Shown here: positions 4,855 to 30,741 of the stretch, piece by piece
Numbering within the stretch: the first letter of the stretch is position 1
Layout: each line of letters begins with the position of its first letter
NCBI GenBank assembly: GCA_016871395.1
Contig: VFYV01000003.1
Location: 1-64,000 of the forward strand
From: Actinomycetota bacterium
Lineage (GTDB): Bacteria; Actinomycetota; Acidimicrobiia; Acidimicrobiales; Ilumatobacteraceae
DNA length: 64,000 nucleotides
Reading direction: 5' to 3'
The notes under the pieces: model-generated
What the model was told of the DNA's origin: nothing
What the model saw: only the letters and a program-made list of their open reading frames with translations
The model's database searches: none
Position numbers and translations under genes: made by a program

Positions 4855-6321
4855 TCAGTCCGTGATGGACGTCCAGTCACTGGTGACGACACCACAAATC
4901 ACCGGTGCCGCACAACCGTTGTAGAGACCGTTCGCATCGGGGGCGGTGTCGGCCGCGGCGGCCGTCACCTTCACCACGTGGACGGCGTTGGCCGCGAACG
5001 GCTTGTCCGGAGCAAGAAGCCCGGTACCGCCACCGATCAGAGCCAAGGGCACCTCACCGAGTCCGCGTGCGGCCTCCAAAAAGGACGCCCGAGTCGGGTT
5101 GACCCCGGCGGCTTCGAGGGCCAGTTTCAAAATGTTCGCGATCGAACATTCCTGCGGGGTGTAATCGGAGTTGAGGACCTTACCCGTCGAGTCGGTGATT
5201 TGCTGACCAGCCGGCACGCCCGGATTGGTCGGACCGCCGTAGTACTCGGTGAAGTTGCTCTCGAAGTGTGCACGGCACTCAGCCTCGAACTCGGTGTCGG
5301 GACGAATCGACGTTCCATCGGTCGAATGGTCGTACGAAGTCGTGCAGGAGCTTCCGACGGCAGCAGCCGGAGCGCGGCTCAGGCCGAACGGTGAGCAACC
5401 CGACGACGACACGTCCATCAACGTGAACGGCAATCCGGCGGGGGCTGCCGCGTTCCAGAAACCGGTGTTTTCCGTGAACGGGGTGGCCAAAAGCACGTGC
5501 TGTGCATTCTCGGCTTGGAATACCCCGACAGCCGACGCGCCCTCCTCGTTGATCGCAGCGGTGTCGCCGGACAACGAGTTCAGTTCGATCTTCTTCACGG
5601 TGTAGCCCGCTGCGGTCAGCGTCGCCTCGGCAGCACTTCCGGCGGCGGTTCCGCCGGGGGTGTTGTTGGCTAGCACTCCCACCACGGAGCCGACGGCGAC
5701 ATCAGTCGTCTCGATCCACTGTTTGGCACCCGCTTGGGCGACCACTTCGGTCGGTGGCGCCAGAGAAATGGTCAACCCGGTCGCTAGTTCCGCGTTGGTC
5801 ATCACGTCGCCGTAAATCAGGGGCATCCCGGCGTCGAGCAAACACTCTCGGGCGACCGACGACAAACCGGTGCCATTGAGCACGAGGAACAACTCGTTGT
5901 CGATTGTGGCGGCTGCGCACAAGGTGTCGAACGACGAGGGATCGAGCGGATTCCAGACCAGTTGCACCAGTTCGATGGTGCGCCCGTTGATACCGCCGGC
6001 CTCGTTGATGTCGTCCATGAAGACCTGCCAGCGGTCGAACAGGTGGTCGGTGGTCAAGGTCTCCGGAATGGATATTCCCGCGGCCCGAACGGCCTCGAGA
6101 TCCGCGACGGCCACACCAAGTTTGATCGTGGTCTCGGTGATGCCGATGTCGGATGCCGTGGGCTCCTCGACGGGAGCCTCAGTGCTCGGCGCTTCGCTCG
6201 TAGGTGCTTCGGATGCGGGCGGATCTTCGGTGGTCTCTCCACCATCGTCGCCGCCACAGGCGGCGATGATGAGCGAAGCCCCCGCGAGCAACGTGACCGC
6301 GATACGTGACTTTCTCTTCAT
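4855..6321 (-). CDS. LivJ-like ABC substrate-binding lipoprotein
   Basis: A 488-residue type I periplasmic-binding-fold protein (Peripla_BP_6, hydrophobic amino-acid/aromatic acid uptake family). The signal peptide ends at lipobox AAC (Cys22), followed by an acidic Ser/Thr/Pro linker. The mature domain starts near ITETTIKLGV and contains DINEAGGINGR, a family hallmark. Several Cys residues near the C-terminus are unusual for the family and may form disulfides. The start at 6321 has a strong GGAGGGGG ribosome site. It lies divergent from the fused transporter genes and very probably delivers substrate to them. Such systems also import aromatic or dicarboxylic acids, and the neighbouring acyl-CoA genes favour a carboxylic acid over leucine. 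Confidence 0.85.
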   Translation of the reverse strand: MKRKSRIAVTLLAGASLIIAACGGDDGGETTEDPPASEAPTSEAPSTEAPVEEPTASDIGITETTIKLGVAVADLEAVRAAGISIPETLTTDHLFDRWQVFMDDINEAGGINGRTIELVQLVWNPLDPSSFDTLCAAATIDNELFLVLNGTGLSSVARECLLDAGMPLIYGDVMTNAELATGLTISLAPPTEVVAQAGAKQWIETTDVAVGSVVGVLANNTPGGTAAGSAAEATLTAAGYTVKKIELNSLSGDTAAINEEGASAVGVFQAENAQHVLLATPFTENTGFWNAAAPAGLPFTLMDVSSSGCSPFGLSRAPAAAVGSSCTTSYDHSTDGTSIRPDTEFEAECRAHFESNFTEYYGGPTNPGVPAGQQITDSTGKVLNSDYTPQECSIANILKLALEAAGVNPTRASFLEAARGLGEVPLALIGGGTGLLAPDKPFAANAVHVVKVTAAAADTAPDANGLYNGCAAPVICGVVTSDWTSITD

Positions 6322-6393: not shown

Positions 6394-6412
6394 ATCTGAC
6401 GGTGCGTCAGAT
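6394..6412. promoter_or_regulatory. operator-like perfect inverted repeat between livJ-like and fused transporter genes
   Basis: ATCTGACG-GTG-CGTCAGAT is a perfect 8+3+8 dyad typical of TetR-type operators. It would overlap the predicted -35 positions of both divergent promoters (-10 boxes at 6371-6376 and 6426-6431), so one regulator could control both sides. A related dyad with the same ATCTGAC half-site occurs at 16399-16413. No regulator gene is in the window. Confidence 0.45.
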
Positions 6413-6471: not shown

Positions 6472-8691
6472 ATGAAAGACCAGCAAAACGCGCCCCAAGA
6501 CCGTCCGCCGATGAGTTCGGCCTCGGCCCTGGTGGCATCCATCGCCGTCGAGGCACCCACTCACGACGCGACAAACCTCGATGTCGACGCCTCGGCGCTG
6601 AGCGGGTTCGTGGAGGCCGGTGACGCCCGGACATCGTTGCGGGCCGGTCTCAAAACCGGCGGTGTCGGAGTCGCCCTCGTTCTGCTGATCTTCACCATCC
6701 TCGAAGACTTCGATCGGGTTGCCATGCAGGTGCTCGGCCCCGACATCCAAGAGACCCTGGGGGTGTCTGACACTGTTCTCCTCGGCTTACAGAGTTTCGG
6801 CGGTGTCGTTCTCGTGCTGGCCACCTTGCCGTTCGCGTGGCTGGCCGATCGATACTCCCGGGTTCGTGTTCTCAGCGGCGCGTCGGGGTTGTGGTTGCTG
6901 TTCGTCGGGTTCACCGGTGCGGTGGTCAATCCTTTCTTGATGGGGGTCGCTCGCGCCGGCTCCGGATTCGGGGCCTCGGCTCGCATACCCATCGGCCCGT
7001 CCCTCGTCGCCGATCAATACCCCTTGAGAGTGCGAACGCGTATCTTTGCTCTCGAGGCTCTGGGTCGTCCGCTCGGTCAGGTGTTCGGTCCGTTGTTCGC
7101 CGGAGGAATTGTGTTGGCCGCTGGTGACGACGCGGGTGACTGGCGTGTCGTCTTTTTCGCGCTGATGATCCCCGCAGCCGCGTCGGTGTTGTGGTCGCTG
7201 ACGTTGAAGGAACCCGTGCGCGGTCAGCAGGAACAAGAGGCCGTTTTGGGTGCGGCGATGACTGGTCCGGCGGCCGACCCCCCCGTGCGTTTGTCGGCGG
7301 CATTCCAGCGTCTGAAGAAAGTACGTACGTTCTACTTTCTCGTGGTTGGCATCGGTGTGCTCGGCTTCGCGTTGGTCGCGGTGCCGAGTGCTTTCAACTT
7401 GCTGCTCGAGGACGCGTATGGTTACGACGCGTTCAAGCGTGGTTGGCTGGGCGCGGTCACTTGGTCGGGAGCACTCATCGGCATCCCACTCGCTGGTCGA
7501 TTCGGTGACCGGATTTTCCGCAAGAACCCCTCGACATCTTTGAAGATGATGGGTGGATTCATCCTCCTCTACGGACTTTTCCTCACCGTGGGACTGCGGT
7601 TTCAAAATCCGGTCGTGATGGTTGCTCTCGTCACCGTCGGCTATTCCTTCCAAGGCATGGCCTTCACTCAATTGGGTCCGGCGATCTCGTCGATCATTCC
7701 GTATCAAATGCGCTCACAGGCGTTCGCGATGGTCGGGGTGTACATCTTCCTCATGGGTGGATTTTTCGGCGGTTTACTGGCCGGTGCCCTCTCTGACGCG
7801 CACGGCGAGCGCACGGCGCTCACCTCCGTCGTTCCGCCCGCGGCTCTGTTGGGGGGATTGCTCATCATTTACGGAAGTCGTTACATGAAAAGGGACATCG
7901 CGCTTTGCGTCGCCGAGTTGAAAGAGCAGCGCGAGGAACAAGTCCGACTCAGCGCAGACCCGGACGGCGTCCCGGTGTTGCAGGTCCGCAACGTCGACGT
8001 CAGTTACGGAAACTTGCAGGTGCTCTTCGATGTCAACTTCGACGTACGGAGGGGCGAGGTCCTCGCTCTGCTCGGCACCAATGGGGCGGGTAAATCGACC
8101 ATCTTGCGGGCGATCTCCGGACTGGTGATGCCGGATCGGGGAGTGGTCCGCATGAACGGCCGCACCGTCACGTTGGTCGATCCGCAATTCCGTTCGCAGA
8201 TGGGTTTGGTGCAGATTCCTGGTGGTGAGGCGGTGTTCCCGTCCATGACGGTGGCCGAGAATCTGGCCATCTGGAGTCGCCAGATCCCCGATGTCGGCAA
8301 GCGTCGGGAGAAGTTGAATTTGGTCGAAGAGACGTTTCCCATGCTTCAGAATCGCATCGACCAACGTGCGGGTTCGTTGTCCGGTGGCCAGCAGCAGATG
8401 CTGGCGCTCGCCAAAGCCATCATGCTCGAGCCCGAGTTGCTGTGCATCGACGAATTGTCGTTGGGTCTGGCACCGGTGGTGGTGCAGGATCTGTTGCGTG
8501 TAGTGGAACGATTGAAAGAGCAGGGAACCACGATGCTCATCGTCGAACAGTCGGTGAACGTCGCTCTTTCCATCGCCGACCGGGCGGTTTTCATGGAGCG
8601 CGGTCAGGTCAGGTTCGAGGGTCCGGCGAGGGATCTCCTCGAGCGAGGTGACTTGTTGCGCGCGGTCTTCTTGTCGGGCGCGGGCGCGTGA
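6472..8691 (+). CDS. MFS transporter fused to LivF-type ABC ATPase
   Basis: A 739-residue fusion. Residues about 60-470 form a major facilitator carrier of roughly 12 helices, with a motif-A-like loop WLADRYSRVRVL at 123-134. After a short charged linker, residues about 502-739 form a complete LivF-type ATPase: Walker A GTNGAGKST (535-543), signature LSGGQ (636-640), Walker B with D660-E661, and the LivF-typical VEQ at the switch position. A secondary carrier joined to an ABC ATPase is unusual. It replaces a free LivF and overlaps the next gene by one base (TGATG), so both chains are made together. Whether the MFS half transports, acts as a helper, or energises the same import is unknown. The reading frame is open throughout. 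Confidence 0.85.
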   Translation: MKDQQNAPQDRPPMSSASALVASIAVEAPTHDATNLDVDASALSGFVEAGDARTSLRAGLKTGGVGVALVLLIFTILEDFDRVAMQVLGPDIQETLGVSDTVLLGLQSFGGVVLVLATLPFAWLADRYSRVRVLSGASGLWLLFVGFTGAVVNPFLMGVARAGSGFGASARIPIGPSLVADQYPLRVRTRIFALEALGRPLGQVFGPLFAGGIVLAAGDDAGDWRVVFFALMIPAAASVLWSLTLKEPVRGQQEQEAVLGAAMTGPAADPPVRLSAAFQRLKKVRTFYFLVVGIGVLGFALVAVPSAFNLLLEDAYGYDAFKRGWLGAVTWSGALIGIPLAGRFGDRIFRKNPSTSLKMMGGFILLYGLFLTVGLRFQNPVVMVALVTVGYSFQGMAFTQLGPAISSIIPYQMRSQAFAMVGVYIFLMGGFFGGLLAGALSDAHGERTALTSVVPPAALLGGLLIIYGSRYMKRDIALCVAELKEQREEQVRLSADPDGVPVLQVRNVDVSYGNLQVLFDVNFDVRRGEVLALLGTNGAGKSTILRAISGLVMPDRGVVRMNGRTVTLVDPQFRSQMGLVQIPGGEAVFPSMTVAENLAIWSRQIPDVGKRREKLNLVEETFPMLQNRIDQRAGSLSGGQQQMLALAKAIMLEPELLCIDELSLGLAPVVVQDLLRVVERLKEQGTTMLIVEQSVNVALSIADRAVFMERGQVRFEGPARDLLERGDLLRAVFLSGAGA

Positions 8692-11507
8692 TGGCCATGC
8701 TCGGTTTGGTTCTTTCCGGAGACATCGTCTTCGACGGTCTGGTGCAGGGTCTCGTTTACGCCCTGGTGGCGTTCGGATTGCTGTTGATCTACCGGGCCAC
8801 GGGGGTCATCAACTTCGCCCACGGTCAGATCGGGGCTTTCGGTGGTTACCTGATGGCCGTTCTCCAGATTCGCTACGACGTGGCGTTCGGAGTGTCATTG
8901 CCCCTGGCGCTCTTGGCCGGGACGGTGCTCGGGGTGGTGTCGGAACTGGTTCTGCGCCGTCTGTTCACTCAACCACGCTTGTTGTTGTTCGTGGCGACCC
9001 TCGGGCTCACTCAGGTGATCCAGTTACTCCAATTACGGCTTCCCATTCCTGACGAACAAGCATCGAGTGTCACGTTCCCCGTGTTGATCGTCGGCAGCTG
9101 GGAGGTTGCCGGAGTCTCCGTGACGGGACCGCAAGTACAGGTCCTGCTCGTGGTTCCGGCGCTGATGGCCTTTCTCGGCTGGTTGTTCTTGAAAAGTCCC
9201 TTCGGCATGCAGGTACGCGCGTCGGCCGACAACCTGTCGGCGGCGCAATTGGCCGGAATCAGCGTGCGCAAAGTGTCGACGAAGACGTGGGCATTGGCCG
9301 GCCTGTTGGCCGCTCTCAGCGCGCTACTCATCGCGCCAATGCAGGGGAGTTCGATTGCCACGGTTCAAAATGCACTCGGTCCCAAATTGCTCCTGCTCTC
9401 CCTGGTTGCGGCCATGTTCGGGCGAATGAAGTCCTTCGGCTGGACCTTGGTCGGCGGAGTGGTGGCTGGAGTGGTCGACCGCTTGCTGCTGTCCTGGTCC
9501 CTCGGCGGAGACCTGCCGATGGGGTCCAACGTCGCTCTACTGTTCCTCATCTTGCTGGTGGTGTTGTTCACGATCGGGCGCAGCGAGTCGATGCGCGACA
9601 GCGGATGGCAGCTCACCAACAAGGTGCGTGCCGCTCGCCAAGAATTGACTCGCCATCCGCTGTACCGCGTCCTGACGTGGGGAGGGGTCGTCGCCCTGGG
9701 TGCCCTGGCTCTCGCGGTTCCGATCATCGCCGAAAAGCCCAGCGACATCTTGAAGTTCACCACCGTGCCCGTTTTTTTGATCGTGGCGCTGTCCATCACG
9801 ATCTTGACCGGTTGGGGCGGTCAATTGTCGCTGGGTCAATTCGGTTTCGTGGCACTCGGCTCGTACTCCACCATCTATTTCGCCAACGGACTTCCCTATT
9901 GGACCGCGTCACTCATCGGTGTGTCCGTCGGGGTGGCCGCGGCCGTCGTCATCGGAGTCCCGGCGTTGCGGGTGAAGGGTCTGTATCTGGCGGTCATCAC
10001 CCTGGGTTTCGGATTGGTCATCCGCTCTTGGTTCATCGTGGCCGACAAGGTCGCTGACGGGGGAACGGCAAAGTTGAATGTCGACCGGGCCAAGGGCTTT
10101 CGTCTCCTCTTCTTCACCGTCAAGGGAAACGATTTCGATGGCGCGTATTATTTCTGTCTGCTCATCGCGGTCGTGGCGATTCTTCTTGTTTGGCGAGTAC
10201 GTCGCACCGGGATCGGACGTTCGATCATCGCCACGCGCGACAACGAGAACTCGGCGGCGGCCTTCACGGTTTCTCCCCAACGGGCGAAGTTGTTGGCGTT
10301 CGCCATGTCGGGAGGTTTGGCTGCCCTGGCTGGTGCCCTCATGCCCTTGGCGGACCGCAGCGGTCAATTCAAGGTCGACCTGCTCGCTTTCGAGTTCGAG
10401 GATTCCCTTCGTATCGTCGCGGTTGCGGTCGTTGGCGGAATCGGCTCCATCACCGGTGCGGTTTTGGGAACGTTGGTGATCATCGCTGTTCCGATCTTCT
10501 TCGACGGAACCGACCAAGTCCAGTTGTTCGCCAGCGGTTTTGGCATGTTGATCGTGTTGCTCTACTTCCCGAGTGGTCTCATCTCGATCCTGCACTCGTT
10601 CCGCGACGTTCTCTTGTCCTGGATCGCCCGTCGCACCGACTGGACCCCGCCGGTTCGTGAGAGGGGCGCCAACGTCGTTTCGTTGGCCAATTCCACGGCG
10701 AAGAAGCCGTCGGTGGCGATGCCTTTGCGTACCGACGGGCTGACGGTGAACCTCGGTGGTCGCATCATCGTCGAAGGCGTCGACCTGGAGGTTCGCTCCG
10801 GCGAGATCGTCGGGCTCATCGGAACGAATGGTGCCGGCAAGACGACCATCCTCAACGCGGTCTCAGGTTTACTGCCGTCCACGGGTGTGGTGGAGTTGTA
10901 CGGACGAGACATCGCGAACCTCTCGGCCCACCGTCGCGCTCGATTGGGGCAGGGGCGGGCGTTTCAGAACGCCCGTCTGTTCGCCTCTCTCACCGTACGC
11001 GAGACCGTGATGGTCGCTCTCGAATCGCGTCAGCGTTCGTTGTTCGTTCCCTCCGTCCTCGGGTTGCCGCCGTCACCAATCGCCGAGCGTCGTAAGCGCC
11101 GCGAATCCGACGAGATCATCAGTTATCTCGGGCTCGGTCGGTATGCGGACTCGTTGTTGGGCGAGTTGTCCACCGGGACGCGTCGCGTCGTCGAGCTGGG
11201 GGCGCTCATCGCTCTGGACTCGAGATTGTTGCTGCTCGACGAGCCGACCGCCGGAGTCGCCCAGCGCGAAACCGAAGCTTTCGGACCGCTGGTCCAGACC
11301 ATCCAACGAGAGCTCGGTGCGTCTATTCTGATCATCGAGCACGACATGCCGATGGTCATGTCCATCTCCGATCGCATTTACTGCCTGGAGGCCGGACGGG
11401 TCATCGCCGAGGGCGACCCCAAGTCGATCCGCGAGAACCCCGCCGTGATCGCCAGTTATCTGGGGACCGACGAACGGGCCATCCAACGCAGCAACACGAA
11501 TGACTGA
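8691..11507 (+). CDS. LivH-LivM-LivG fusion: branched-chain-type ABC permease/permease/ATPase
   Basis: A 938-residue fusion of three normally separate subunits. Residues about 1-300 are a LivH-type permease (INFAHGQIGAFGGY near the N-terminus, a typical start). Residues about 325-630 are a LivM-type permease with GQLSLGQFGFVALGSY. Residues about 685-938 are a LivG-type ATPase: Walker A GTNGAGKTT, signature LSTGTRR, Walker B LLLLDEPTAG and switch His in IIEHDM. Together with the upstream LivF-type domain and the LivJ-like lipoprotein, this completes a five-module hydrophobic/aromatic acid importer in three polypeptides. The start is ATG 8691, which shares a base with the preceding stop codon; GTG 8688 is also in frame. 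Confidence 0.9.
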   Translation: MAMLGLVLSGDIVFDGLVQGLVYALVAFGLLLIYRATGVINFAHGQIGAFGGYLMAVLQIRYDVAFGVSLPLALLAGTVLGVVSELVLRRLFTQPRLLLFVATLGLTQVIQLLQLRLPIPDEQASSVTFPVLIVGSWEVAGVSVTGPQVQVLLVVPALMAFLGWLFLKSPFGMQVRASADNLSAAQLAGISVRKVSTKTWALAGLLAALSALLIAPMQGSSIATVQNALGPKLLLLSLVAAMFGRMKSFGWTLVGGVVAGVVDRLLLSWSLGGDLPMGSNVALLFLILLVVLFTIGRSESMRDSGWQLTNKVRAARQELTRHPLYRVLTWGGVVALGALALAVPIIAEKPSDILKFTTVPVFLIVALSITILTGWGGQLSLGQFGFVALGSYSTIYFANGLPYWTASLIGVSVGVAAAVVIGVPALRVKGLYLAVITLGFGLVIRSWFIVADKVADGGTAKLNVDRAKGFRLLFFTVKGNDFDGAYYFCLLIAVVAILLVWRVRRTGIGRSIIATRDNENSAAAFTVSPQRAKLLAFAMSGGLAALAGALMPLADRSGQFKVDLLAFEFEDSLRIVAVAVVGGIGSITGAVLGTLVIIAVPIFFDGTDQVQLFASGFGMLIVLLYFPSGLISILHSFRDVLLSWIARRTDWTPPVRERGANVVSLANSTAKKPSVAMPLRTDGLTVNLGGRIIVEGVDLEVRSGEIVGLIGTNGAGKTTILNAVSGLLPSTGVVELYGRDIANLSAHRRARLGQGRAFQNARLFASLTVRETVMVALESRQRSLFVPSVLGLPPSPIAERRKRRESDEIISYLGLGRYADSLLGELSTGTRRVVELGALIALDSRLLLLDEPTAGVAQRETEAFGPLVQTIQRELGASILIIEHDMPMVMSISDRIYCLEAGRVIAEGDPKSIRENPAVIASYLGTDERAIQRSNTND

Positions 11508-11513
11508 TTCTCC

Positions 11514-13631
11514 ATGACCGAACGCGCGTACAACTCCCTACTTTCGTCCGGTCGCATCGCTGGACTCGAATTGTCGAATCGGGTGTTCCTGGCGGCCATG
11601 GACATGAACCTTTGTGTCGACGGCGAGATCAGCGACGGCGAGATCGCCCACTACACGGCCCGAGCGGCGGGCGGAACCGCCATGGTCATCACCGGCACCG
11701 GTGCGGTGGCGTGGCCCGTGGGTGCCACCTCGCGCCATCAGCCGGCGTTCTCCGACGATCGTTTCATTCCCGGCATCGGCCGGTTGGCGGACTCGGTTCA
11801 CGCCGCCGGCGGTCGTCTGTGCATGCAGCTCTGTCACCACGGCAAGACCGCCAGTGTGGACACGGCCGAGGGTCGACCGCAGTTGGTGCCCTCGTTGCTC
11901 GACGGTACCCCCGATCTGTCGGCCCTTCGAGACAGCCCAATGGACGAGTTGCGGCGACTCGCCACGGCCACGCAAGGCAAGAAAGCCACCTACAAGGTGG
12001 CCGACGAGGAAGACTTGGTCTGGGTGATCGATCAGTTCGCCGCCGCCGCCCGACGCGTGAAGTTCGCCGGCGTCGACGCCATCGAGATCCACGCCGCCCA
12101 CGGCTATCTGTTGTCGACCTTTTTGTCGCGCACCTATAACAAGCGTGACGATCGTTGGGGAGGTTCGATCGAGAACCGGGCACGCCTCACCTGTGAGGTG
12201 GTGCGGGCGGTGAAGCGCGAGGTGGGTGCGGATTACCCGGTGCTCGTTCGACTGAATGGTCATGAATACGGACCGTGGGATGGCCTGACCGCGGCTGAGA
12301 GCGCCGAAGCGGCGGCTCTCATCGAGCGAGCGGGGGCTGACGCCATCCACGTCTCGGCCAACGCGCACAATCCCTTCGCCGACTTCACCGACGGGCCGTT
12401 GCCCAGCGCGGTGGGGGCGTATCGCGAGCACACCAAGACGATCAAGCAGGCCGTATCCATCCCCGTGGTGGCCGTGGGGCGCATGTTGCCCGAGTTGGCC
12501 GACGAGATGATTGCCGCCGGCGAATGCGACTTCGTCTCCATGGGACGCCAGCTCCTGGCCGATCCCGAATTGGTGAACAAGATTCGGGCCGGCCGTCGTC
12601 GCTCGGTGAGGCCGTGCATCAACTGCTACGTGTGCGTCGAGCAGAACTTCTTCGATGGCAACCCGAAATGCGCCGTCAACCCGGCCTTGTGCAACGAGGA
12701 GGTGGCGCTCCTCACGCCGTTCGATCGTCCTCGGCACGTTGTCGTCATCGGTGGCGGACCCGGTGGCATGGAGGCCGCGCGCGTGGCGGCGACTCGTGGG
12801 GCCAAGGTCACTCTCATCGAAAAGGGCGGGCGTCTCGGTGGAACGCTGTGGTTCTCCCAACTCACGACGCCGGCCAATGAGATGCTCGTCGACTGGTTGA
12901 CCCACGAGGTCGAGCGCCTCGGTGTGGAAGTTTTGCTGGGCACCCGTGCCGACGTCGATCTCGTCGACAGTCTGCGGCCCGATGTGGTGATCGTGGCCAC
13001 GGGTGCTCGTCGCGGTCGTCCGGACGTTCCTGGTGCGGATCTACCCCATGTGCTCACCGGTGATGCACTGCGCGGTGTCATCACCGGCGAGGCCGATGCC
13101 GATCTCGCGGCGCTGGGTCCACTCCAACGAGTGGTGGTGGCGGCGGGTCGCGCGGTGGGAGCGTTGAGCGATGCGAACCGCGTCCGTCGCCTTTCCAAGA
13201 TGTGGATGCCGATCGGCAGACGCGTGGTCGTCGTCGGAGGCGGTTTGGTGGGTCTCGAACTGGCCGAGTATCTGGCCGAGCGCGGACGTCACGTCACGGT
13301 GTTGGAAGAGGGCCAACACCTTGGTCTTCCGATGGCCATGCCCCGTCGTTGGACGGCGGTGCGCGAGGCCCGCGAGCACGGCGTCGTCCTCGTTCGTGAA
13401 GCGCGTCTGGTGTCGATTTCGTGCGACTCGGTCCGTTACCACGTGGGTGACGAGCAGTTCGACGTGGGGGCGGACAACGTGATCGTGGCCGGCGAAGTTC
13501 GTGCTGACGCATCCCTCGCCGACGAGCTGTCGGCGCGGGGGCTGAACGTGAGGTTGGTCGGTGATGCCGCCGAGGTGGGCTACATAGAGGGTGCCATTCA
13601 CGGCGCCATGAAGGTGGCCCGTGACCTCTGA
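11514..13631 (+). CDS. NADH:flavin oxidoreductase, 2,4-dienoyl-CoA reductase (FadH) type
   Basis: A 705-residue flavo-iron-sulfur protein with FadH architecture: an old-yellow-enzyme FMN barrel (about 1-370, with HAAHGYLLSTFLS and RWGGSIENRARL), a 4Fe-4S site CINCYVC followed 11 residues later by another Cys, and an FAD/NAD(P) region with two dinucleotide-binding loops (GGGPGG and GGGLVG). FadH-type enzymes reduce conjugated double bonds in CoA esters, and relatives act on aromatic or steroid intermediates. The gene starts 6 bp after the transporter fusion and overlaps the next FadD gene by 11 bp, so it belongs to the same transcript. This couples uptake, CoA activation and reduction. The exact substrate cannot be assigned. 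Confidence 0.88.
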   Translation: MTERAYNSLLSSGRIAGLELSNRVFLAAMDMNLCVDGEISDGEIAHYTARAAGGTAMVITGTGAVAWPVGATSRHQPAFSDDRFIPGIGRLADSVHAAGGRLCMQLCHHGKTASVDTAEGRPQLVPSLLDGTPDLSALRDSPMDELRRLATATQGKKATYKVADEEDLVWVIDQFAAAARRVKFAGVDAIEIHAAHGYLLSTFLSRTYNKRDDRWGGSIENRARLTCEVVRAVKREVGADYPVLVRLNGHEYGPWDGLTAAESAEAAALIERAGADAIHVSANAHNPFADFTDGPLPSAVGAYREHTKTIKQAVSIPVVAVGRMLPELADEMIAAGECDFVSMGRQLLADPELVNKIRAGRRRSVRPCINCYVCVEQNFFDGNPKCAVNPALCNEEVALLTPFDRPRHVVVIGGGPGGMEAARVAATRGAKVTLIEKGGRLGGTLWFSQLTTPANEMLVDWLTHEVERLGVEVLLGTRADVDLVDSLRPDVVIVATGARRGRPDVPGADLPHVLTGDALRGVITGEADADLAALGPLQRVVVAAGRAVGALSDANRVRRLSKMWMPIGRRVVVVGGGLVGLELAEYLAERGRHVTVLEEGQHLGLPMAMPRRWTAVREAREHGVVLVREARLVSISCDSVRYHVGDEQFDVGADNVIVAGEVRADASLADELSARGLNVRLVGDAAEVGYIEGAIHGAMKVARDL

Positions 13632-15321
13632 GCAAAGTGCCACTCTCACCTTCGCCGATCACGTTCGCGCGCGCGCCGAGGACGACAACGTGGCGATCCT
13701 GTTCGAGGATTCCTCGATCACGTATCGACAGTGGTGTCGAGAGGTCGCGCGTCGGGCCTCGCTGTGGCGCTCGGTCATCGACGCCGCGCCGACGGGGACG
13801 TCGCCCCACATCGGCGTGATGCTCGACAACACCCCCGAATTCACCATGTGGCTCGGGGCTGCCGCGGTGACCGGTGCCAGTGTGGTGGGGATCAACAGCA
13901 CGCGCCGTGGCGCTGAGCTGGCCCGCGACATCGTGCACACATCGTGTCGAGTGGTGGTGACCGATTCGACCCAATCGGGCCTACTCGACGGATTGGATCT
14001 CGGTGGCGCGAACGGGCGGGTCTTCGTCGTCGACTCGACTGAACACGGGTTGTTACTCGCCGAACACGATGGGGCGAGGCTGCCCACCTCGGCACAATGT
14101 CCGGTCGAGCCGTCCTCCACGTTCCTGTTGCTCTTCACGTCGGGAACCAGCGGTGCGCCCAAGGCGGTCATCACCAGTCACCAACGGTTGAATTTCGTGT
14201 CGGGTTCGATGGTGATGATCACCGAGCTGACATCCACGGACGTGACCTACATATCGATGCCACTGTTCCACTCCAACGCGTTGTTCACCGCCTGGGCGCC
14301 CTCGGTGTTGTCAGGGGCCACGATTGCCCTGCGCCGCAAGTTCTCGGCATCGGAGTTCATGCCCGACGTCCGCCGCTATGGTGCGACGTACTTCAATTAC
14401 GTAGGCAAACCGCTCACTTACATCCTGGCCACTCCCGAGAGTCCGAACGACCGGGACCACAAACTGCGTATCGGATTCGGCAACGAGGGTTCGGAAGTCG
14501 ATCTGGCTCGATTCGCCGAACGATTCGGGGTGCGGCTCATCGACGGGTACGGTCAAACCGAGACCGGAGCGTCGATCGTGCGCGTCCCCGGGATGCCAGC
14601 GGGGGCCCTCGGGGTGGCGGCCCAACCCACCATCACCGTTCGTGACCCCGGGTCCAATCGCGAGTGCCCGCGGGCGGTCTTCGACGATCGAGGTCGGGTG
14701 CTCAACTTGGAGGAGGCCACCGGAGAGATCGTCAATGCCGGCGGAGGCACGTTCGAGGGGTACTTCAACAACGAGGAAGCGAATCGGGAGCGTCTTCGTG
14801 ACGGGGCGTATTGGACCGGTGACCTCGCGTACCGTGACGAGTCGGGATTCTTTTACTTCGCCGGTCGAAGCGCCGATTGGATGCGCGTCGATGGAGAGAA
14901 CTTCGCCGGAGCGCCCATCGAGCGCATCATCATGCGCCACCCGAGCGTCCTGCTCGCCGCCGTGTACGGGGTGCCCGACGCCGAGATCGGTGATCGTGTC
15001 ATGGTGGCCATGCAGTTGAAGCCCGAGACCAACTTCGACATCGACGAGTTCGCCTTGTTCCTGTCGACCCAGGGCGACTTGTCCCCGAAGTGGCTTCCCT
15101 CCTTCGTGCAAGTGGTCGACGGGTTTCCGATGACCTCCACCAACAAGGTCGTCAAGCGTGATTTGGTGAAGCGACGATGGCACGACGTGGAAGGCGGGGG
15201 ATCCGCGCGCATCTGGTGGCGTCGTGGTCGTGAGACGAACTTCGTGAGTTTCGATGCTGCTGCCGCGGACGAACTCCGCCGACGATTCGAATCGGTCGGG
15301 CGCGGTCAGATGTTGGCCTGA
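13621..15321 (+). CDS. FadD17-like acyl-CoA synthetase (first of two)
   Basis: A 566-residue adenylate-forming ligase that activates a carboxylic acid to its CoA thioester. It has the ATP loop LFTSGTSGAPKAV, the adenylate motif DGYGQTETG, the hinge region YWTGDLAYRDESGFFYF, and a C-terminal TNKVVKRDL carrying the catalytic Lys. GINSTRRGAELARD is characteristic of the mycobacterial FadD17/FadD1 branch, whose members act in sterol and lipid catabolism (family knowledge). It begins with GTG inside the end of the flavoenzyme gene and closes the transporter operon. It is paralogous to the gene at 17758-19413, sharing FEGYxNN and the GRSADWxRVDxENFA block. Confidence 0.88.
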   Translation: MTSEQSATLTFADHVRARAEDDNVAILFEDSSITYRQWCREVARRASLWRSVIDAAPTGTSPHIGVMLDNTPEFTMWLGAAAVTGASVVGINSTRRGAELARDIVHTSCRVVVTDSTQSGLLDGLDLGGANGRVFVVDSTEHGLLLAEHDGARLPTSAQCPVEPSSTFLLLFTSGTSGAPKAVITSHQRLNFVSGSMVMITELTSTDVTYISMPLFHSNALFTAWAPSVLSGATIALRRKFSASEFMPDVRRYGATYFNYVGKPLTYILATPESPNDRDHKLRIGFGNEGSEVDLARFAERFGVRLIDGYGQTETGASIVRVPGMPAGALGVAAQPTITVRDPGSNRECPRAVFDDRGRVLNLEEATGEIVNAGGGTFEGYFNNEEANRERLRDGAYWTGDLAYRDESGFFYFAGRSADWMRVDGENFAGAPIERIIMRHPSVLLAAVYGVPDAEIGDRVMVAMQLKPETNFDIDEFALFLSTQGDLSPKWLPSFVQVVDGFPMTSTNKVVKRDLVKRRWHDVEGGGSARIWWRRGRETNFVSFDAAAADELRRRFESVGRGQMLA

Positions 15322-22526: not shown

Positions 22527-23162
22527 TCAGTGCGGAGCGCCGAACTGGCGATCACCGGCGTCGCCCAGACCGGGGACGATGAAGGCGTTCTCGTTCAGGC
22601 GCTCGTCGATCGATGCGGTGAAGATGCGCAGATTCAACCCGGTGCCACGTAGGAACTCGATGCCCTCGGGGGCGGCCAACGCGCAGATCACGGTGATCGG
22701 ACCGGTGGGATTGCGCTCCATGAGGAGTTCGCACGTGTGAGCGAGCGAACCACCGGTGGCCAACATGGGGTCGAGCACGATGCAGGTGCGCCCCGCCAAC
22801 GTTTCGGGCAACTTGTTGACGTAGGGCTTTGGTTCGAAGGTCTTCTCATCGCGGCTGATGCCGACGAAGCCGACGTCAGCGTTGGGCATCAACTCTTGGG
22901 CGGCGTGGACGAAGCCCAATCCGGCGCGTAGCACGGGCACGACGACGGGTTGGCTCGAGAGCGCGCGACCACTGGTGGTGGTGAGCGGCGTCTGCACGGT
23001 CACATCGTGTGTCGCGAGGTTGCGGGTGGCCTCGGCGAGCAGCAGCGTTCCAACCCGCTCGAGTTCCTGTCGGAAGAGAGCGTTGGGCGTGGAGACGTCG
23101 CGTATTCGGGTCAGCGAGTCGGCGATGAGCGGATGGGCGACGACGGTGACCTCGACGGGCAT
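22527..23162 (-). CDS. upp: Uracil phosphoribosyltransferase
   Basis: A 211-residue enzyme making UMP from uracil and PRPP. The PRPP loop is DPMLATGGS with D131 first. The family N-terminal pattern HPLIADSLTRIRD and the C-terminal uracil-binding GLGDAGDR are present. Length is normal for bacterial Upp. It lies 17 bp after adenosine deaminase, in the same direction, and is probably the last gene of the phyH-add-upp transcript. It provides pyrimidine salvage next to the nucleoside importer. Confidence 0.95.
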   Translation of the reverse strand: MPVEVTVVAHPLIADSLTRIRDVSTPNALFRQELERVGTLLLAEATRNLATHDVTVQTPLTTTSGRALSSQPVVVPVLRAGLGFVHAAQELMPNADVGFVGISRDEKTFEPKPYVNKLPETLAGRTCIVLDPMLATGGSLAHTCELLMERNPTGPITVICALAAPEGIEFLRGTGLNLRIFTASIDERLNENAFIVPGLGDAGDRQFGAPH

Positions 23163-23179
23163 GGCCTCAGTCTTGCCGA

Positions 23180-24262
23180 TCAGCGGGTCTGACTTCCCAT
23201 TGCCAGTTCGGCCCGTAGCAAGGCGTAGCGAGGCTTGATCATGCCGTTGATGATCCGTAGGCGCTCAGGGAACGGGGCGAAGGCGCTCTTCATGGCGTTC
23301 AGGGTCATCCACTCGAAGTCGTCCAGCCCCCAACCGAAAGCGACGCTCAGTTGGGCGAATTCCTTGGTCATACTGGTGTCGCTCATGAGGCGGTTGTCGG
23401 TGTTCACGGTCACCCGGAACCGCAGACGGCGCAGCAATCCGATGGGATGTTCGGCGATCGAGCCACACACACCGGTGTTGACGTTACTGGTGGGGCACAA
23501 CTCGAGAGGGATGCGTCGGTCGCGCACGAAGGCCGCCAGACGTCCGAGTTGCTCGGCCCCCTCGGGTCCGGTGATGTCGTCCACGATCCGAACTCCGTGC
23601 CCGAGGCGCTCGGCTCCGCACAACTGCACGGCCTCCCAGATGCTCGGGAGGCCGAAGGCCTCTCCGGCGTGGATGGTGGAATGAAAGTTCTCGCGCTGCA
23701 CGTGGTTGAAGGCTTCCAGATGCCGAGTGGGAGGATGGCCGGCCTCGGCTCCGGCGATGTCGAATCCGATCACGCCACGATCGCGCCAACGCACTGCGAG
23801 GTCAGCGATCTCGAGACTCCGGCGAGCCGTACGCATCGCCGTGCAGATGGCGTAAATGGTCAAGTCGGTGCCGCTCGCCCCGCGGGCGAAGCCGTCCATG
23901 ATGGACTCCATCACCTCGTCCAAGGTGAGACCCTTCTCGGTGCACAGCTCAGGTGCCATGCGCACCTCGGCGTACACCACCCCGTCGGCAGCCAGATCGT
24001 GGGCGCACTCGTAGGACACGCGTTCGATGGCGTCCTTGTCCTGCATGACGCCCACGGTGTGGGCGAAGGTCTCGAGGTACAGCACGAGATCGTTGCGCTT
24101 GGCACCGCGGTGGAACCATCTCGAGAGATCCGTCACGTCGGCGGTGGGTAGTCCCCGGTAGCCGTACTCGGCCGCCAGTTCGACCACGGTCTCGGGTCGA
24201 AGACCTCCGTCGAGGTGATCGTGCAACAGCACCTTGGGTGCACGGCTCAGGACGTCGCTCAT
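23180..24262 (-). CDS. add: Adenosine deaminase
   Basis: A 360-residue zinc deaminase converting adenosine to inosine (deoxyadenosine likewise). Zinc and catalytic residues are visible: H14 and H16 in HDHLDGG, H198 and catalytic E201 in HAGE, H222 in GHGV, and D289 in NTDNRLMS, the actinobacterial variant of the usual [13 protein letters not shown] is also typical. The ATG overlaps the PhyH stop codon by 4 bp, so translation is coupled. It processes nucleosides delivered by the BMP-type importer encoded just beyond queF. Confidence 0.95.
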
Positions 24263-25134
24263 CGGGCTCGGGCCATGTCGCTGAGTCGTCGCAACGGGAG
24301 GTCGGCTGATCGCTGCAACCAATTCCACGACGGATAGTCGGCCGAGGCGGCGATGCAATGCAGTGAATAGGCGTGGCGACTCTTGTCGCTGCGGTTCACG
24401 TCGCTCCAGTGCGGCAAGAGACCGTGAAGGACGATCATGGTCCCGGCCGACACCTCGAGGGGAACGAGATCACCGGGGGCCTCGGGAAGAGGATTCGGAT
24501 CGAGCACGTCGAAGGTGGCTCCGTCGTTCTCGACGTTGCGCACGAACTTCTTGCGCAACGACGTGCGATGACCACCCGGAGACGCCCACATGCAACCGTT
24601 TTCCAACGTGGCGTCCTCGATGGCGAACCAGAAGCCGGTGACGGTGATCGGGACGGTGTAGAGAAAGGTCGCGTCCTGATGGCAGCCGACCTCACCACCG
24701 ATACGGGGTTGCTTGCAGATGTACATGCTCTGCAGGGCCAAGGCATCGGGTATTCCGATGTCGGCGGCCACGCCGGCGAGTTTTGTGGTGTACGTGAAGG
24801 CGGCGAAAACGGGATCGAGGTCGTGCATGGCGTGGCCGATCTTGTTGACACTCAATTCCTTGGCTTGGCGAAGTCGACCCTCCTCGTCGAAAGCTTCCTC
24901 CTCGAAAAAACAGTGGATGCCGTTGGCCGACTCGATGAACTCACGATCGGCGTGACGGCTCTGCTCGTTGGTGGTGAAGACACTGCGATGGGACTCGGGA
25001 TCGAAGGCCCGCAAGATCTCCTCGGCGCGGGTCTTGACGGCTCGGCAGGCCGAGGCGTCGGTGAAGTCGGGGATCACCAAAAACCCGTCGCGGTGGTAAC
25101 CGGCGATCTGAGACTCGGAAAGGACCTGACCCAT
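24259..25134 (-). CDS. Phytanoyl-CoA dioxygenase (PhyH) family protein
   Basis: A 291-residue Fe(II)/2-oxoglutarate dioxygenase. The metal triad is H152 and D154 (HQD) with a distal His in [17 protein letters not shown], most likely H242; R253 would bind 2-oxoglutarate. It resembles PHYHD1-type members, whose substrates are unknown. It is translationally coupled to adenosine deaminase (4-bp overlap) and leads that operon, an odd partner for nucleoside salvage. The start at 25134 has no ribosome site; TAGGCT lies 6 nt upstream, as for a leaderless message. Substrate cannot be predicted; hydroxylation of a nucleoside or of a lipid are both open. Confidence 0.85.
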
Positions 25135-25140
25135 GGTCGA

Positions 25141-25146
25141 AGCCTA
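25141..25146 (-). promoter_or_regulatory. leaderless -10 box (TAGGCT) of the phyH-add operon
   Basis: TAGGCT, 6 nt, ATG 25134 on the minus strand, with no Shine-Dalgarno sequence. Confidence 0.5.
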
Positions 25147-25196
25147 GGGGGTGGACTTCGGGCCGTGGCGTGGGTGCGGACCCGGTGAAAGACCCA

Positions 25197-25202
25197 TACG
25201 CT
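25197..25202 (+). promoter_or_regulatory. leaderless -10 box (TACGCT) of queF
   Basis: TACGCT, 8 nt, ATG 25211. No ribosome site is seen before queF. Confidence 0.45.
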
Positions 25203-25210
25203 GTTTCTCC

Positions 25211-25618
25211 ATGGGAAAGAACTCGTCCGACATCCCGCACGACGGCCTGACCGTTCTGGGCGCCACGGTTCGCGAGGCGATCGAGCACGTCGAGGTCTTT
25301 GCGGCCCCAGCCAACGTGTCGGTGGTGACCTTCACCACCGATGAGCTGGCATCGCTGTGCCCGGTCACCCGCCAGCCTGATCTCGCGACCGTGGTCATCG
25401 AATATCGGCCTGTCGCGTGGTGCGTGGAATCCAAGAGTTTGAAGTTGTATCTGTGGAACTTCCGCGACCGGGCGGTGTTCGCCGAGACATTGGCGGCCGA
25501 AATCGCCGATGAGATCATGAACACCGCCGCGCCGGCGGGCGTTCGGGTGACCCTGACCCAACGGCCCCGAGGAGGCATCGAGGTACGCGCCGTCGCCGAG
25601 CTGGGGGGCTTTTTCTGA
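25211..25618 (+). CDS. queF: NADPH-dependent 7-cyano-7-deazaguanine reductase (preQ0 reductase), short type
   Basis: A 135-residue T-fold enzyme reducing the nitrile of preQ0 to the amine of preQ1 for queuosine tRNA modification. Key residues are present: nucleophile C50 in LCPVTRQPD, D57, and the QueF signature VESKSLKLYLWNFRD with E73. Its length fits the short, single-domain type. Relatives of the GTP cyclohydrolase fold lack this set. It is a solitary gene between phyH and the importer permease, converging with the latter (1-bp gap). No other queuosine gene (queC, D, E or tgt) is in the window, so the rest of the pathway must be elsewhere or preQ0 is salvaged. Confidence 0.93.
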   Translation: MGKNSSDIPHDGLTVLGATVREAIEHVEVFAAPANVSVVTFTTDELASLCPVTRQPDLATVVIEYRPVAWCVESKSLKLYLWNFRDRAVFAETLAAEIADEIMNTAAPAGVRVTLTQRPRGGIEVRAVAELGGFF

Positions 25619-25619
25619 C

Positions 25620-26882
25620 TCAGTGATTCTCGCCGGGGCGATACGACTGCCCGGCGTGCGCGGGTGGACGCAGTTGTTGTCGAGCGCCGGCCAGCACGAT
25701 GATCGTCACGATGTACGGCGTGGCAGCCACGAATTCCGAGGGCACCTCGTCGACGGTGATCCAGGTGAACAAGGCCAATACCGATCCGAACGCGGTGCCA
25801 CTGGCGGCCAGAGACTTGCGTCGCGACCCCAGCAATACGCTGACCAGAGCCAACACGACGGCGGTCACCAACAGCAGTGCGGGCACGTTCTTGGCGTCAC
25901 GGAACCTCAGCGCGGTCGGGAAACCGAACAGGATCGCACCGCGCAGGACGCCGACCGGATTCCAGTTGCCGAAGATGGTGGTGGCCAAACCGATGAATCC
26001 CCGGCCACCGGTTTGCCCCTGCCGATACGTGCTGGTGAGAACGCACGACAAGTATGCGCCACCGAATGCGGCCAGCGAGCCGCTGATGGCCATGGCCTGG
26101 TAGCGCAGGCGCACCACTGGTACACCGAGGCTCTCACCGGCTCGCGGTGACTCGCCGCTGGAACGAAGTCGCAAGCCCCATCGCGTTCGCCACAGGACCC
26201 ACGCCGTCAGCGGGACGATGGCGAGTGCCACCATTGTCGGGATGTACACGTTGCTGGAGACACCCCGCGCGAACGAGGCCAGGTCGGGGATGAGGGGGAT
26301 GTCGTTCTTCTTCTCGATCCAACCGAGGATGTTCGGGCTCTTCCAATCACCGATGTGACCACCGCTGAGGAACGGCAAGTCGAAGGTCCCGTATCCGCCC
26401 TTACCGTTGGGAGACTGACTCTCGCCTCCTCCGTTGTTTTTGAAGGCGATGATGGACAGATATTCGGTGGCACCGGCGGCGAGAATGTTGACGGCGATCC
26501 CCGACACCACGTGATCGACGTTGAACCGAACCGTGGCCAACGCATGGATGAGACCCACCAGTGCTCCGCCGACGAGCGCGAGACCGATACCAGCCCACGA
26601 ACCCCACTTCCAGGCTCCGAAACCACCGAGCCACGAGCCAACGATCATCATGCCTTCGATGCCGATGTTCACGATGCCCGCACGCTCGGCCCACAAACCA
26701 GCGAGACCGGCCAGCAGGATCGGTGTGGCCACGCGAAGCGTCGACGAGATGGTGCCCGAACTCGTGAGATCGTCGGTCCCGGTGAGGACCCGCACCATGG
26801 ACAGGATGAAGACGAAGCCGAGTGACACGAAAATCACGCGACGCGCCGGACTCAAGGAGGACAGGATCGAGATGCGACTCAC
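25620..26882 (-). CDS. Nucleoside ABC importer permease (second permease)
   Basis: A 420-residue inner-membrane permease of the BPD_transp_2 family, nucleoside/BMP-associated branch (NupC/YufQ-like). It has about ten hydrophobic segments, and AERAGIVNIGIEGMM is the family's N-terminal motif. A loop of Gly-rich and charged residues around 160-210 is longer than usual. GTG 26882 overlaps the preceding permease stop by 4 bp (GTGA), which fixes the start over a longer frame to 26936. It is the last gene of the ATPase-permease-permease operon and converges with queF. Confidence 0.9.
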   Translation of the reverse strand: MSRISILSSLSPARRVIFVSLGFVFILSMVRVLTGTDDLTSSGTISSTLRVATPILLAGLAGLWAERAGIVNIGIEGMMIVGSWLGGFGAWKWGSWAGIGLALVGGALVGLIHALATVRFNVDHVVSGIAVNILAAGATEYLSIIAFKNNGGGESQSPNGKGGYGTFDLPFLSGGHIGDWKSPNILGWIEKKNDIPLIPDLASFARGVSSNVYIPTMVALAIVPLTAWVLWRTRWGLRLRSSGESPRAGESLGVPVVRLRYQAMAISGSLAAFGGAYLSCVLTSTYRQGQTGGRGFIGLATTIFGNWNPVGVLRGAILFGFPTALRFRDAKNVPALLLVTAVVLALVSVLLGSRRKSLAASGTAFGSVLALFTWITVDEVPSEFVAATPYIVTIIVLAGARQQLRPPAHAGQSYRPGENH

Positions 26883-27961
26883 GATGCCGCCTCGACCATC
26901 GCTGCGGCGCGACGCTGGATTCGTCGGTCGTCCCAACGTTTGACCGCCTCGTTGATTATGACCACCGCCAGCACGATGATGCCGGTCATGATGGTGACGA
27001 TCTCCTTGGGAATGTCGTCCAACTGCAGACGTCCGGAGGCCTCGCCGAGGAATCCGAACAAGAGAGCCGAGAAGAAGATGCCCAAGGGATGATTGCGTCC
27101 GAGGAGAGCGACCGCGATTCCATTGAACCCTTGCTGTTCAGCCAGATTGTTCTGGTAGGCGTGAACGTCACCCATCAAGGCGCGCATACCCACCAGACCG
27201 GCGAGTGCACCCGAGATCAACATGGATATCACGATCATGCGCTTGGGATTCACACCGGAGGCACGCGCCGCTCCGGCGTTGGCCCCCGACGCACGTAACT
27301 GGAATCCGAATTTGGTTTTCCACACCAGTATCCAGAACAGGATCAGGATGACGACGGCCACGATCAGAATTCCGTTCAAACGTCGATCGACCAGATCGGG
27401 GAACCAAGCACTTCGCGGCAGGTCCTTGGTCTTCACCAGAAGGCTCGTGGATTCACCTTCCTCGTCGAGGCGGAAGAAGGTGTCGAACGCCCAAGCCACC
27501 ACACTGAGTCCGATGAAGTTCAACATGATCGTCGAGATGACTTCGTTGACGTTGCGCTTCACCTTCAGCCAACCGGCGATTCCGGACCAGAGGGCACCGG
27601 TGGCCATGGCGATCATGAAGCAGAAAGCGACATGCAACGGGGCGGGTAGGTCCACGGCTCCGCCGATGACCGCGGTGGACAACAACGCCACCCGCATCTG
27701 ACCCTCGACGCCGATGTTGAAGAGATTCATCTTGAAGCCGATGGCCACCGCCGCCGCCGAAATCATGAGAGGGGTCGCGCGGTTGAGCATGCCCTGCAAG
27801 ACCTTCGTCTCGCTGGCCGCGCCGAAGAGCGTCGAGTATGCCTTCACCGGGTCCTTGCCGGTGACGAGCAGGATGACGGCGCAGACGACGAGGGCCACGA
27901 TGATCGCGAGAACCGAACTGGCCGACGTCACCAGCACACGCTGCAATCTCTGACGATTCAC
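26879..27961 (-). CDS. Nucleoside ABC importer permease (first permease)
   Basis: A 360-residue permease of the same family (NupB/YufP-like). FNIGVEGQM near residue 80 matches the conserved permease motif, and there are about ten hydrophobic helices. GTG 27961 overlaps the ATPase stop codon by 4 bp, and its own stop overlaps the next permease start, so the three are translated as a coupled unit. It pairs with the second permease to form the channel for nucleosides bound by the BMP lipoprotein. Confidence 0.92.
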   Translation of the reverse strand: MNRQRLQRVLVTSASSVLAIIVALVVCAVILLVTGKDPVKAYSTLFGAASETKVLQGMLNRATPLMISAAAVAIGFKMNLFNIGVEGQMRVALLSTAVIGGAVDLPAPLHVAFCFMIAMATGALWSGIAGWLKVKRNVNEVISTIMLNFIGLSVVAWAFDTFFRLDEEGESTSLLVKTKDLPRSAWFPDLVDRRLNGILIVAVVILILFWILVWKTKFGFQLRASGANAGAARASGVNPKRMIVISMLISGALAGLVGMRALMGDVHAYQNNLAEQQGFNGIAVALLGRNHPLGIFFSALLFGFLGEASGRLQLDDIPKEIVTIMTGIIVLAVVIINEAVKRWDDRRIQRRAAAMVEAAS

Positions 27962-29511: not shown

Positions 29512-29544
29512 GGTTCCCCTCGATGAGATCCGTCAGTTATAGCA

Positions 29545-29573
29545 GAGAGCCCGGGTCGTGGACCCGGGCTCTC
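29545..29573 (-). terminator. strong hairpin between the binding-protein and ATPase genes
   Basis: A perfect 13-bp inverted repeat, GAGAGCCCGGGTC with its complement around a GTG loop. No T-tract follows on the minus strand. Between a binding-protein gene and its transporter genes such a stem usually stabilises the upstream message or causes partial termination, so more binding protein than transporter is made. Confidence 0.6.
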
Positions 29574-29612
29574 GCGTTGTGCTGGTAGCGGAACGAGCCC
29601 GCTGATTCCCGA

Positions 29613-30665
29613 TCAGGGAGCCGTCGGAACCTCGATCTCGCCCGCGATGATCGCGGCCTTGATCTCGTCGAGGTCAGCGACGATGTCGTCGATCCATCCA
29701 CCAGAGGTGGCATAGCCGACGCCGTCATTGCTCAGATCGAACACCTTGATCCCGCCAGAGGTATCTCCCGAGGCGACGGCCTTGATGGTCTCGCACACGG
29801 CCACGTCGACGCGCTTCAGCATCGAAGTGAGGATGTGCTCCTGAGCCTCGGGGTCACCCGAGGTGAGGTATTGGTCGCTGTCGACACCGATAGCCCACGC
29901 ATCGGCCTCGATGGCCGCTTGGATGGTGCCCGCACCCGAACCGCCAGCGGCGGTGTAGATGATGTCGGCGCCTGCGGCGTACCAGCCGGCGGCGATTTCC
30001 TTGGCTCCGTCCACGTTGCCCCACGCGGTGTTGTCACCAGCGGGTCCGAGGTAGGCAACTTCTACGACGATGTCGGGGTTCACGTACTTGGCGCCCGCGG
30101 CGTAACCGGCCTCGAACTTCTTGATGAGGTCGATCTCCTGACCACCGATGAAACCAATGGTGCCGGTCTCGCTCTTCAGCGCGGCGGCGGCTCCGACCAG
30201 GAACGAGCCCTGCTCCTCGGCGAACACCAGGCTCGACACGTTGTCAGCCTCGACCACCGAGTCGACGATGCCGAACGACACGTCGGGGTTGGCCGCGGCG
30301 ACCTCACCCATGGGATCGGTGAACATGAAGCCCACACCCACGATGACCTTGGCGCCACCTTCGACCAATAGTTCGAGGTTGGCCTTGCGGTCCTCGTCGA
30401 CATTCGCCTCGAGTTCCTTGACTTCTGCACCGGTTGCCTCGGCGGCGCACTCGCCACCGGCGGCGGCCGAGTCGTTGAACGTGCCGTCGCCACGGCCACC
30501 GGTGTCGAAGGCGATTCCGGCGATCAGATCGCTGGTTGCCGGAGCCTCGGACGACTCGGTCGGGGCCTCGCTACTGGTTGATCCGCCGTCGTCGCCACCG
30601 CAAGCCGCGGCGAAGAGGCCGAGAGCAGCCAGCGAAGCCGCCAGCAGTCGTGCTTTCTTACGCAT
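29613..30665 (-). CDS. BMP-family nucleoside-binding lipoprotein
   Basis: A 350-residue lipoprotein of the BMP/Med family (PnrA/BmpA-like), the external purine-nucleoside receptor of ABC importers. The signal peptide ends in AAAC with Cys22, followed by an acidic Ser/Thr linker. The mature fold starts at AGIAFDTGGRGDGTFND, a hallmark of the family; IGFIGG and WGNVDGAKEIAAGWY follow. ATG 30665 follows GGGAGG. It is first in the importer gene set; the hairpin after it suggests it is the most abundant product. The specific nucleoside is not clear from sequence. Confidence 0.92.
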   Translation of the reverse strand: MRKKARLLAASLAALGLFAAACGGDDGGSTSSEAPTESSEAPATSDLIAGIAFDTGGRGDGTFNDSAAAGGECAAEATGAEVKELEANVDEDRKANLELLVEGGAKVIVGVGFMFTDPMGEVAAANPDVSFGIVDSVVEADNVSSLVFAEEQGSFLVGAAAALKSETGTIGFIGGQEIDLIKKFEAGYAAGAKYVNPDIVVEVAYLGPAGDNTAWGNVDGAKEIAAGWYAAGADIIYTAAGGSGAGTIQAAIEADAWAIGVDSDQYLTSGDPEAQEHILTSMLKRVDVAVCETIKAVASGDTSGGIKVFDLSNDGVGYATSGGWIDDIVADLDEIKAAIIAGEIEVPTAP

Positions 30666-30741
30666 GTGGTTTTCCTCCCCTGAATCGTCGAACGGGGTGT
30701 CCGACGAAGTGAATGTCAAACCTTACACAATCCGCGGATGC

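Follow-up and report, generated by a model that had tools for sequence, protein, structure and literature searches.

The window examined here is a 64,000-nucleotide stretch of DNA from an actinomycetotal bacterium. A gene at 6472..8691 (+) encodes a 739 aa protein in which an MFS carrier is followed by a LivF-type ATPase. Translation of the frame meets no stop, Pfam assigns a domain to each half, and relatives carry the same arrangement; the MFS-LivF fusion is real, as the first-pass annotation of this DNA had claimed in describing a complete MFS domain and a complete ATPase read in one frame. The MFS half occupies residues 66-485 (6667..7926, +) and is spinster-like, judging by the solved structures closest to it in sequence. 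Pfam MFS_1 spans residues 72-431 and is matched almost end to end (profile positions 2-345 of 347, E 4e-33), a full-length match that speaks against the possibility, raised at the outset, that this part does not have a transporter fold. A hydropathy scan of the MFS half returns 11 segments rather than 12, the segment at ~158-180 having probably been missed. The loop of motif A, LADRYSRVR, lies at residues 124-132 (6841..6867, +) and stands out by its conservation across distinct fusions. The ATPase half occupies residues 501-735 (7972..8676, +). Pfam ABC_tran covers residues 519-661 (profile positions 2-134 of 137, E 2.5e-29), and the best NCBIfam models for this half are UrtE at 193 bits (cutoff 285.8) and LivF at 171 bits (cutoff 441), both below cutoff. 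The catalytic motifs expected of a complete ATPase could all be located, at positions that we take to be Walker A (535-542), the signature (636-642), Walker B (656-661), and the EQ switch region (690-694); they are near-invariant among 50 distinct fusions, the set obtained when 95 such frames are thinned at 85% identity. AlphaFold2 models of the whole protein and of the MFS half, built on no more than 19 and 17 aligned close relatives, reached mean pLDDT values of 45.9 and 46.6, too low to reveal the fold.

The stop of this gene shares 4 bases with the GTG start of the next one (8688..11507, +), so the overlap with the rest of the importer was correctly described. The downstream product is a LivH-LivM-LivG fusion of 939 aa that matches Pfam BPD_transp_2 in two stretches, ABC_tran, and BCA_ABC_TP_C, with LivG as its best NCBIfam model, below cutoff. 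Divergent from the MFS-LivF gene lies the gene of a Peripla_BP_6 binding protein (4855..6321, −; Pfam) that begins with an ATG at 6321 and has a lipoprotein-like N-terminus. These features of a HAAT importer present in the window (LivH, LivM, LivG, the ABC motifs, and the binding protein) are the ones found in LivJHMGF and UrtABCDE, which likewise combine LivH, LivM, LivG, LivF, and a Peripla_BP_6 binding protein, all adjacent. Here, in contrast, fusion of the permeases and ATPases has placed a single set of LivH, LivM, LivG, and LivF on two neighboring polypeptides, and an MFS carrier stands N-terminal to LivF. Two further genes follow, for an Old-yellow-enzyme/FadH-type flavin reductase of 705 aa (11514..13631, +; Pfam Oxidored_FMN) and an acyl-CoA ligase of 566 aa (13621..15321, +; Pfam AMP-binding). 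Between the two divergent genes there is an operator-like perfect palindrome, TCTGACGGTGCGTCAGA (6395..6411, +), that is conserved upstream of orthologues.

Recurrence of the Fusion in Two Gene Layouts

All 24 genomes of a genus sample match the fusion protein at E 1e-60 or better, and in 23 of them the match covers the two halves and reaches at least residue 700; the best match in the remaining genome (G014) stops at 657. In a class sample of 395 genomes, 117 match at 1e-66. At least 101 of the 395 have one match across both halves, a lower bound counted by hand from the listed rows with two candidates scored per genome; the other 16 have fragments or the ATPase half only. A both-halves match was also found in 19 of 396 genomes of a phylum sample, six of them outside the class (G572, G576, G586, G590, G600, and G700). 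A single frame runs across both halves in 95 of 1673 open frames (117 loci), duplicates included. Five single-contig genomes carry the fusion (G042, G203, G301, G377, and G500), as does the complete sequence NZ_CP108785.1 of Embleya sp. NBC_00888, where MFS-LivF is followed by LivH-LivM-LivG and then by a binding protein; among 1436 matching plasmid records, no other has 80% or more of the query covered in one place. The idea that homologues might turn out to be two separate genes with a frameshift in between did not hold, the homologues being single-frame with a sole exception. That exception is L192 (6865-9321), the only case seen with MFS and LivF in two frames, and it could be either a split gene or a sequencing error. 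We note that three MAG records titled Bifidobacterium breve (L025, L026, and L032) contain the gene at 77-80% identity; the organism names look wrong.

We picked 40 loci with both halves from the match lists, a non-random sample, and in all 40 the fused gene adjoins Liv permease genes. Homologues of the same architecture, whose surroundings had been put forward as a check, thus sit beside such genes throughout this set, and they do so in two layouts. In layout A (20 of 40), MFS-LivF accompanies LivH-LivM-LivG, with a separate LivH gene in L122. Layout B (the other 20) consists of LivH-LivM and MFS-LivF-LivG; no LivG was detected in L154, and a contig end cuts L156. LivH and LivM are present in all 40 picked loci and LivG in 39, L154 again being the one in which none was detected. 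A binding protein was found in 35 of the 40 stretches with a profile that had been grown in three rounds from the same loci it scored. It was found in none of L119, L128, L154, L155, and L156, and in two of these five, L119 and L156, the fused gene runs to the contig end. Six further fusions (L203, L204, L205, L209, L210, and L211) also occur with Liv permease genes; in L204 and L209, the binding protein gene lies between the fusion and the permease genes.

Since each layout contains one of each Liv module and one MFS domain, the two-layout pattern is the strongest evidence we have for identifying the ATPase half with LivF of the importer and for counting the MFS domain as part of the system. 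The view taken in the first-pass annotation, that the ATPase half most likely serves as LivF of the adjoining importer, agrees with the permease genes in 40/40 picked loci and the binding protein in 35/40, and it is most likely right. With the same joint gene recurring beside the same importer genes in many relatives, the arrangement looks like a genuine combined uptake system.

Marker Residues and Conservation of the MFS Half

The nearest solved relatives of the MFS half by sequence are HnSpns (6e8j), SPNS1, and SPNS2, followed by DgoT, at E 1e-8 to 1e-4; even the best of these E values to PDB chains (about 1e-8) is modest, and HnSpns gives no significant alignment with the second half. Motif A is kept as in the spinster carriers, with D126 and R127 in 49/50 distinct fusions and R130 in 50/50, and motif A together with D181, R225, R250, R323, R414, and D475 is found in 98-100% of them. 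The TM1 pair of the spinster carriers (D41 and R42 in HnSpns) corresponds to D81 and R82 in the window protein, of which D81, again shared with HnSpns, SPNS1, and SPNS2, occurs in 41/50 and R82 in 34/50 distinct fusions. In a second set, all 20 layout-B loci have this Asp, versus 13 of the 27 layout-A loci, another 5 of which have Glu. That set also gives D126 of motif A in 23 of the 27 layout-A loci; the Asp is gone in L203, L204, and L210, all from one genome (G271), and in L133 (G700). Arg323 is found in 26/27 layout-A and 20/20 layout-B fusions versus 1/10 standalone relatives.

An account of HnSpns names Asp41 and Glu129 as its proton switches (PMC9440201), and the equivalent Glu126 is named in a mycobacterial relative (PMC13192786). 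In contrast to the spinster carriers, the fusions are without the TM4 Glu: the position is Ala168 in the window protein, and Glu occurs there in 0/50 fusions. We considered that this loss might be tied to the fusion and rejected the idea, because 9 of 10 standalone relatives are also without the Glu (present in 1/10); the loss belongs to the branch and not to the fusion.

For the four closest orthologue pairs, we obtained pN/pS values of 0.076-0.112 in the MFS half and 0.093-0.135 in LivF, with synonymous sites near saturation. In these close pairs, the MFS half is under purifying selection as strong as that on the ATPase, and this conservation argues against a dispensable passenger. The MFS half is less constrained in four more distant pairs (0.17-0.40 versus 0.13-0.27 for LivF), the L035 pair giving 0.40 versus 0.27, and over the 50 fusions the mean top-residue frequency is 0.49 for MFS versus 0.68 for the ATPase. 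When compared by helix group, a coarse test from which L203, L204, L205, L209, and L210 (layout A), L211 (layout B), and L192 (standalone) were left out, mean conservation is alike in fused and standalone carriers, and the peripheral helices of the fused carriers show no conservation excess. In 25 layout-A loci, MFS distances track those of LivM beyond the effect of LivF (partial r 0.37, 0/500 permutations), and the same test with LivH gives a partial r of 0.29 (4/500 permutations); common inheritance can also give such correlations.

Module Exchange and a Second LivF Fusion

In the MFS tree, layouts A and B form two groups. The exception is the fusion L205 (7787-10030), whose MFS half falls among the standalone carriers and whose LivF half falls in the layout-A group, with a long branch in both trees. 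The AU test rejects a tree in which the fused MFS halves all form a single clade (p 2.6e-5; the group was chosen after the tree had been seen). When L205 is removed, the fused MFS rows form one side of a branch supported at 77, short of a firm grouping. In the LivF tree, L154 and four rows of standalone LivF are neighbors of layout B, so layouts A and B may go back to one fusion event or to more than one. The split placement of L205 suggests that the N-terminal module was exchanged on at least one occasion.

On its contig 8, the source genome has another LivF gene, whose product carries a membrane domain at its N-terminus (L009 5399-7309); a binding protein gene precedes it and LivHMG follows. 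This domain has at least 11 hydrophobic segments; no Pfam family matched it, and no MFS similarity was detected. Of the 24 genus genomes, 4 have the paralogue; a search of 198 class genomes with a somewhat shorter query found it in 2, both members of the genus. We asked whether the domain could be an eroded MFS carrier and set this aside, the hhalign probability against the MFS set being 1.9% versus 6.0% for an unrelated LivM used as a control, in what is a weak test with only 4 near-identical rows in the alignment of the domain. The presence in the domain of 11 hydrophobic segments, with positive charge in the even-numbered loops, is no more than suggestive.

Catabolic Neighbors and Likely Substrate

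Five close relatives (L023, L024, L025, L027, and L028) carry the full cassette of binding protein, MFS-LivF, LivHMG, flavin reductase, and acyl-CoA ligase, with the binding-protein homologue in the same place in all five. The best NCBIfam model for the ligase is the steroid-22-oyl-CoA synthetase CasI (586 bits, below the cutoff of 900). In the roomy distant loci L033, L034, L037, L039, L120, and L121, reductase and ligase were not found at a 60-bit threshold; as they were detected near the fusion in close relatives only, steroid breakdown was dropped as a role of the whole family.

The palindrome between the divergent genes was found in one or two near-perfect copies in each of eight close relatives examined, and the core TGAC-N(3-7)-GTCA lies upstream in 14/14 relatives examined, some of them near-duplicates. 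No other site with fewer than 3 mismatches is present in the window, where 3-mismatch sites are no more frequent than by chance. The source genome has 16 sites at up to 2 mismatches versus 3 for a reversed control, and seven sites, the window palindrome included, have 0 or 1 mismatch. We inspected seven other sites, six at 0 or 1 mismatch and one at two. Genes for acyl-CoA dehydrogenases nearest PimC adjoin three of the seven, a count without a genome-wide baseline and for enzymes that score far below NCBIfam cutoffs; at one of these three sites, an IpdE2-like gene comes next after the dehydrogenase. The remaining sites adjoin short-chain, alcohol or aldehyde dehydrogenases, amidohydrolases, a TauD-type dioxygenase or a luciferase-like oxidoreductase, and at one of them an acyl-CoA ligase is next in line. 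The palindrome is likely the regulator-binding site of a candidate regulon. Its neighbors hint, weakly, at the breakdown of alicyclic or steroid-like acids, and such a regulon would point to an alicyclic or steroid-like acid as the substrate of the importer.

The nearest known case in physiology appears to be that of Rhodococcus jostii RHA1, in which the ABC transporter CamABCD and the MFS carrier CamM are described as importing different cholate metabolites (PMC8399759). As in the MFS-LivF system, one ABC and one MFS transporter occur together, there in one actinobacterium and for steroid (cholate) metabolites; unlike the fusion, CamABCD and CamM are two separately encoded transporters, a comparison that we draw from their description and not from sequence.

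The named relatives of the fusion are largely Acidimicrobiia-type MAGs, several of them from lakes or a pond, and the module may therefore be a route for the uptake of complex organic acids in such settings.

Possible Roles of the MFS Half

The reading that we favor, at about even odds (a probability of roughly 0.5), is a two-polypeptide HAAT importer whose LivF subunit, the product of this gene, has a spinster-like MFS carrier built in, with the MFS half functional as a carrier of the importer's own substrate or of a related compound. The binding protein would deliver its ligand, a carboxylic acid that may be alicyclic or steroid-like, to LivH/LivM, and ATP hydrolysis by LivF and LivG would, as family knowledge suggests, power import through LivHM. 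In the source genus, the downstream ligase could then activate the imported acid. More tentatively, the MFS half might work as a carrier inside the same complex, as a second mode of uptake or for the release or exchange of a product. The options offered in the first-pass annotation for the MFS half (two-mode uptake, a membrane tether for the ATPase, and counter-transport of a product) are all candidates only. We count for a working carrier the palindrome sites that the system has in common with catabolic genes and the precedent of CamABCD and CamM; the support from catabolic neighbors is limited in that the reductase and ligase were found only in close relatives. Against a working carrier count the loss of the motif-A Asp in 4/27 layout-A loci and the presence of Asp81 in only 13/27, the contig 8 paralogue with a domain of no detectable MFS similarity in the same place, and the faster evolution of the MFS half than of the ATPase in distant pairs, together with its lower conservation over the 50 fusions.

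Some of these observations would be explained if the MFS half no longer transports and has become a membrane module with a structural or regulatory task, one that brings LivF to the permeases or that senses substrate and gates the ATPase, which we regard as possible, though short of probable. Four layout-A loci, three of them from one genome, have lost the motif-A Asp yet retain the N-terminal membrane domain, a domain of no detectable MFS similarity fills this place in the contig 8 paralogue, and the MFS module of L205 appears to have been swapped, L205 being a long branch in both trees. The loci without the motif-A Asp and the paralogue argue, at least in those cases, that the role is structural or regulatory. 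In nearly all of the 50 fusions, however, motif A and the other carrier residues are kept under strong selection, and the peripheral helices are without the excess of conservation that the coarse helix-group test might have revealed.

By convention, ABC transporters and MFS carriers belong to different classes, each with its own source of energy; a conserved covalent link between the two, in an apparently complete importer that includes a binding protein, allows one to ask directly whether an ABC machine can drive, gate or feed an MFS carrier. In a hybrid primary/secondary transporter, the binding and hydrolysis of ATP by LivF would drive or gate the alternating access of the MFS half. If true, this would be an ATP-powered or dual-energized MFS carrier, without the usual spinster proton switch, inside an ABC importer; we consider it doubtful. 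About as doubtful is that two independent transporters with separate jobs share one gene for co-expression only. Gene fusion can serve co-expression, and the halves in L192 do lie in two frames, but the link is kept in two layouts, across a class and beyond, only ~35 residues separate the last hydrophobic segment of the MFS half from the ATPase, and all 40 picked loci sit with Liv permeases. The chance of an assembly or gene-calling artefact is negligible: named relatives are largely MAGs, but the recurrence of the fusion in at least 101/395 class genomes, in five single-contig genomes, and in the complete NZ_CP108785.1 contradicts it.

A search of open-licence literature, judged by title and the start of the abstract, returned no paper on an MFS carrier joined to a Liv-type ATPase. 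Database entries with the MFS-LivF architecture probably exist, and fused genes of this kind may be labeled by one half only. Secondary carriers are otherwise tied to another activity in LplT-Aas fusions, or to an ATPase that changes the energy source in ArsA with ArsB; unlike the fusion described here, neither of these involves a Liv-type ABC importer. Elsewhere in the window, at 22527-30719, genes for a uracil phosphoribosyltransferase and an adenosine deaminase lie near frames that by eye resemble an ABC importer (27958-30719).
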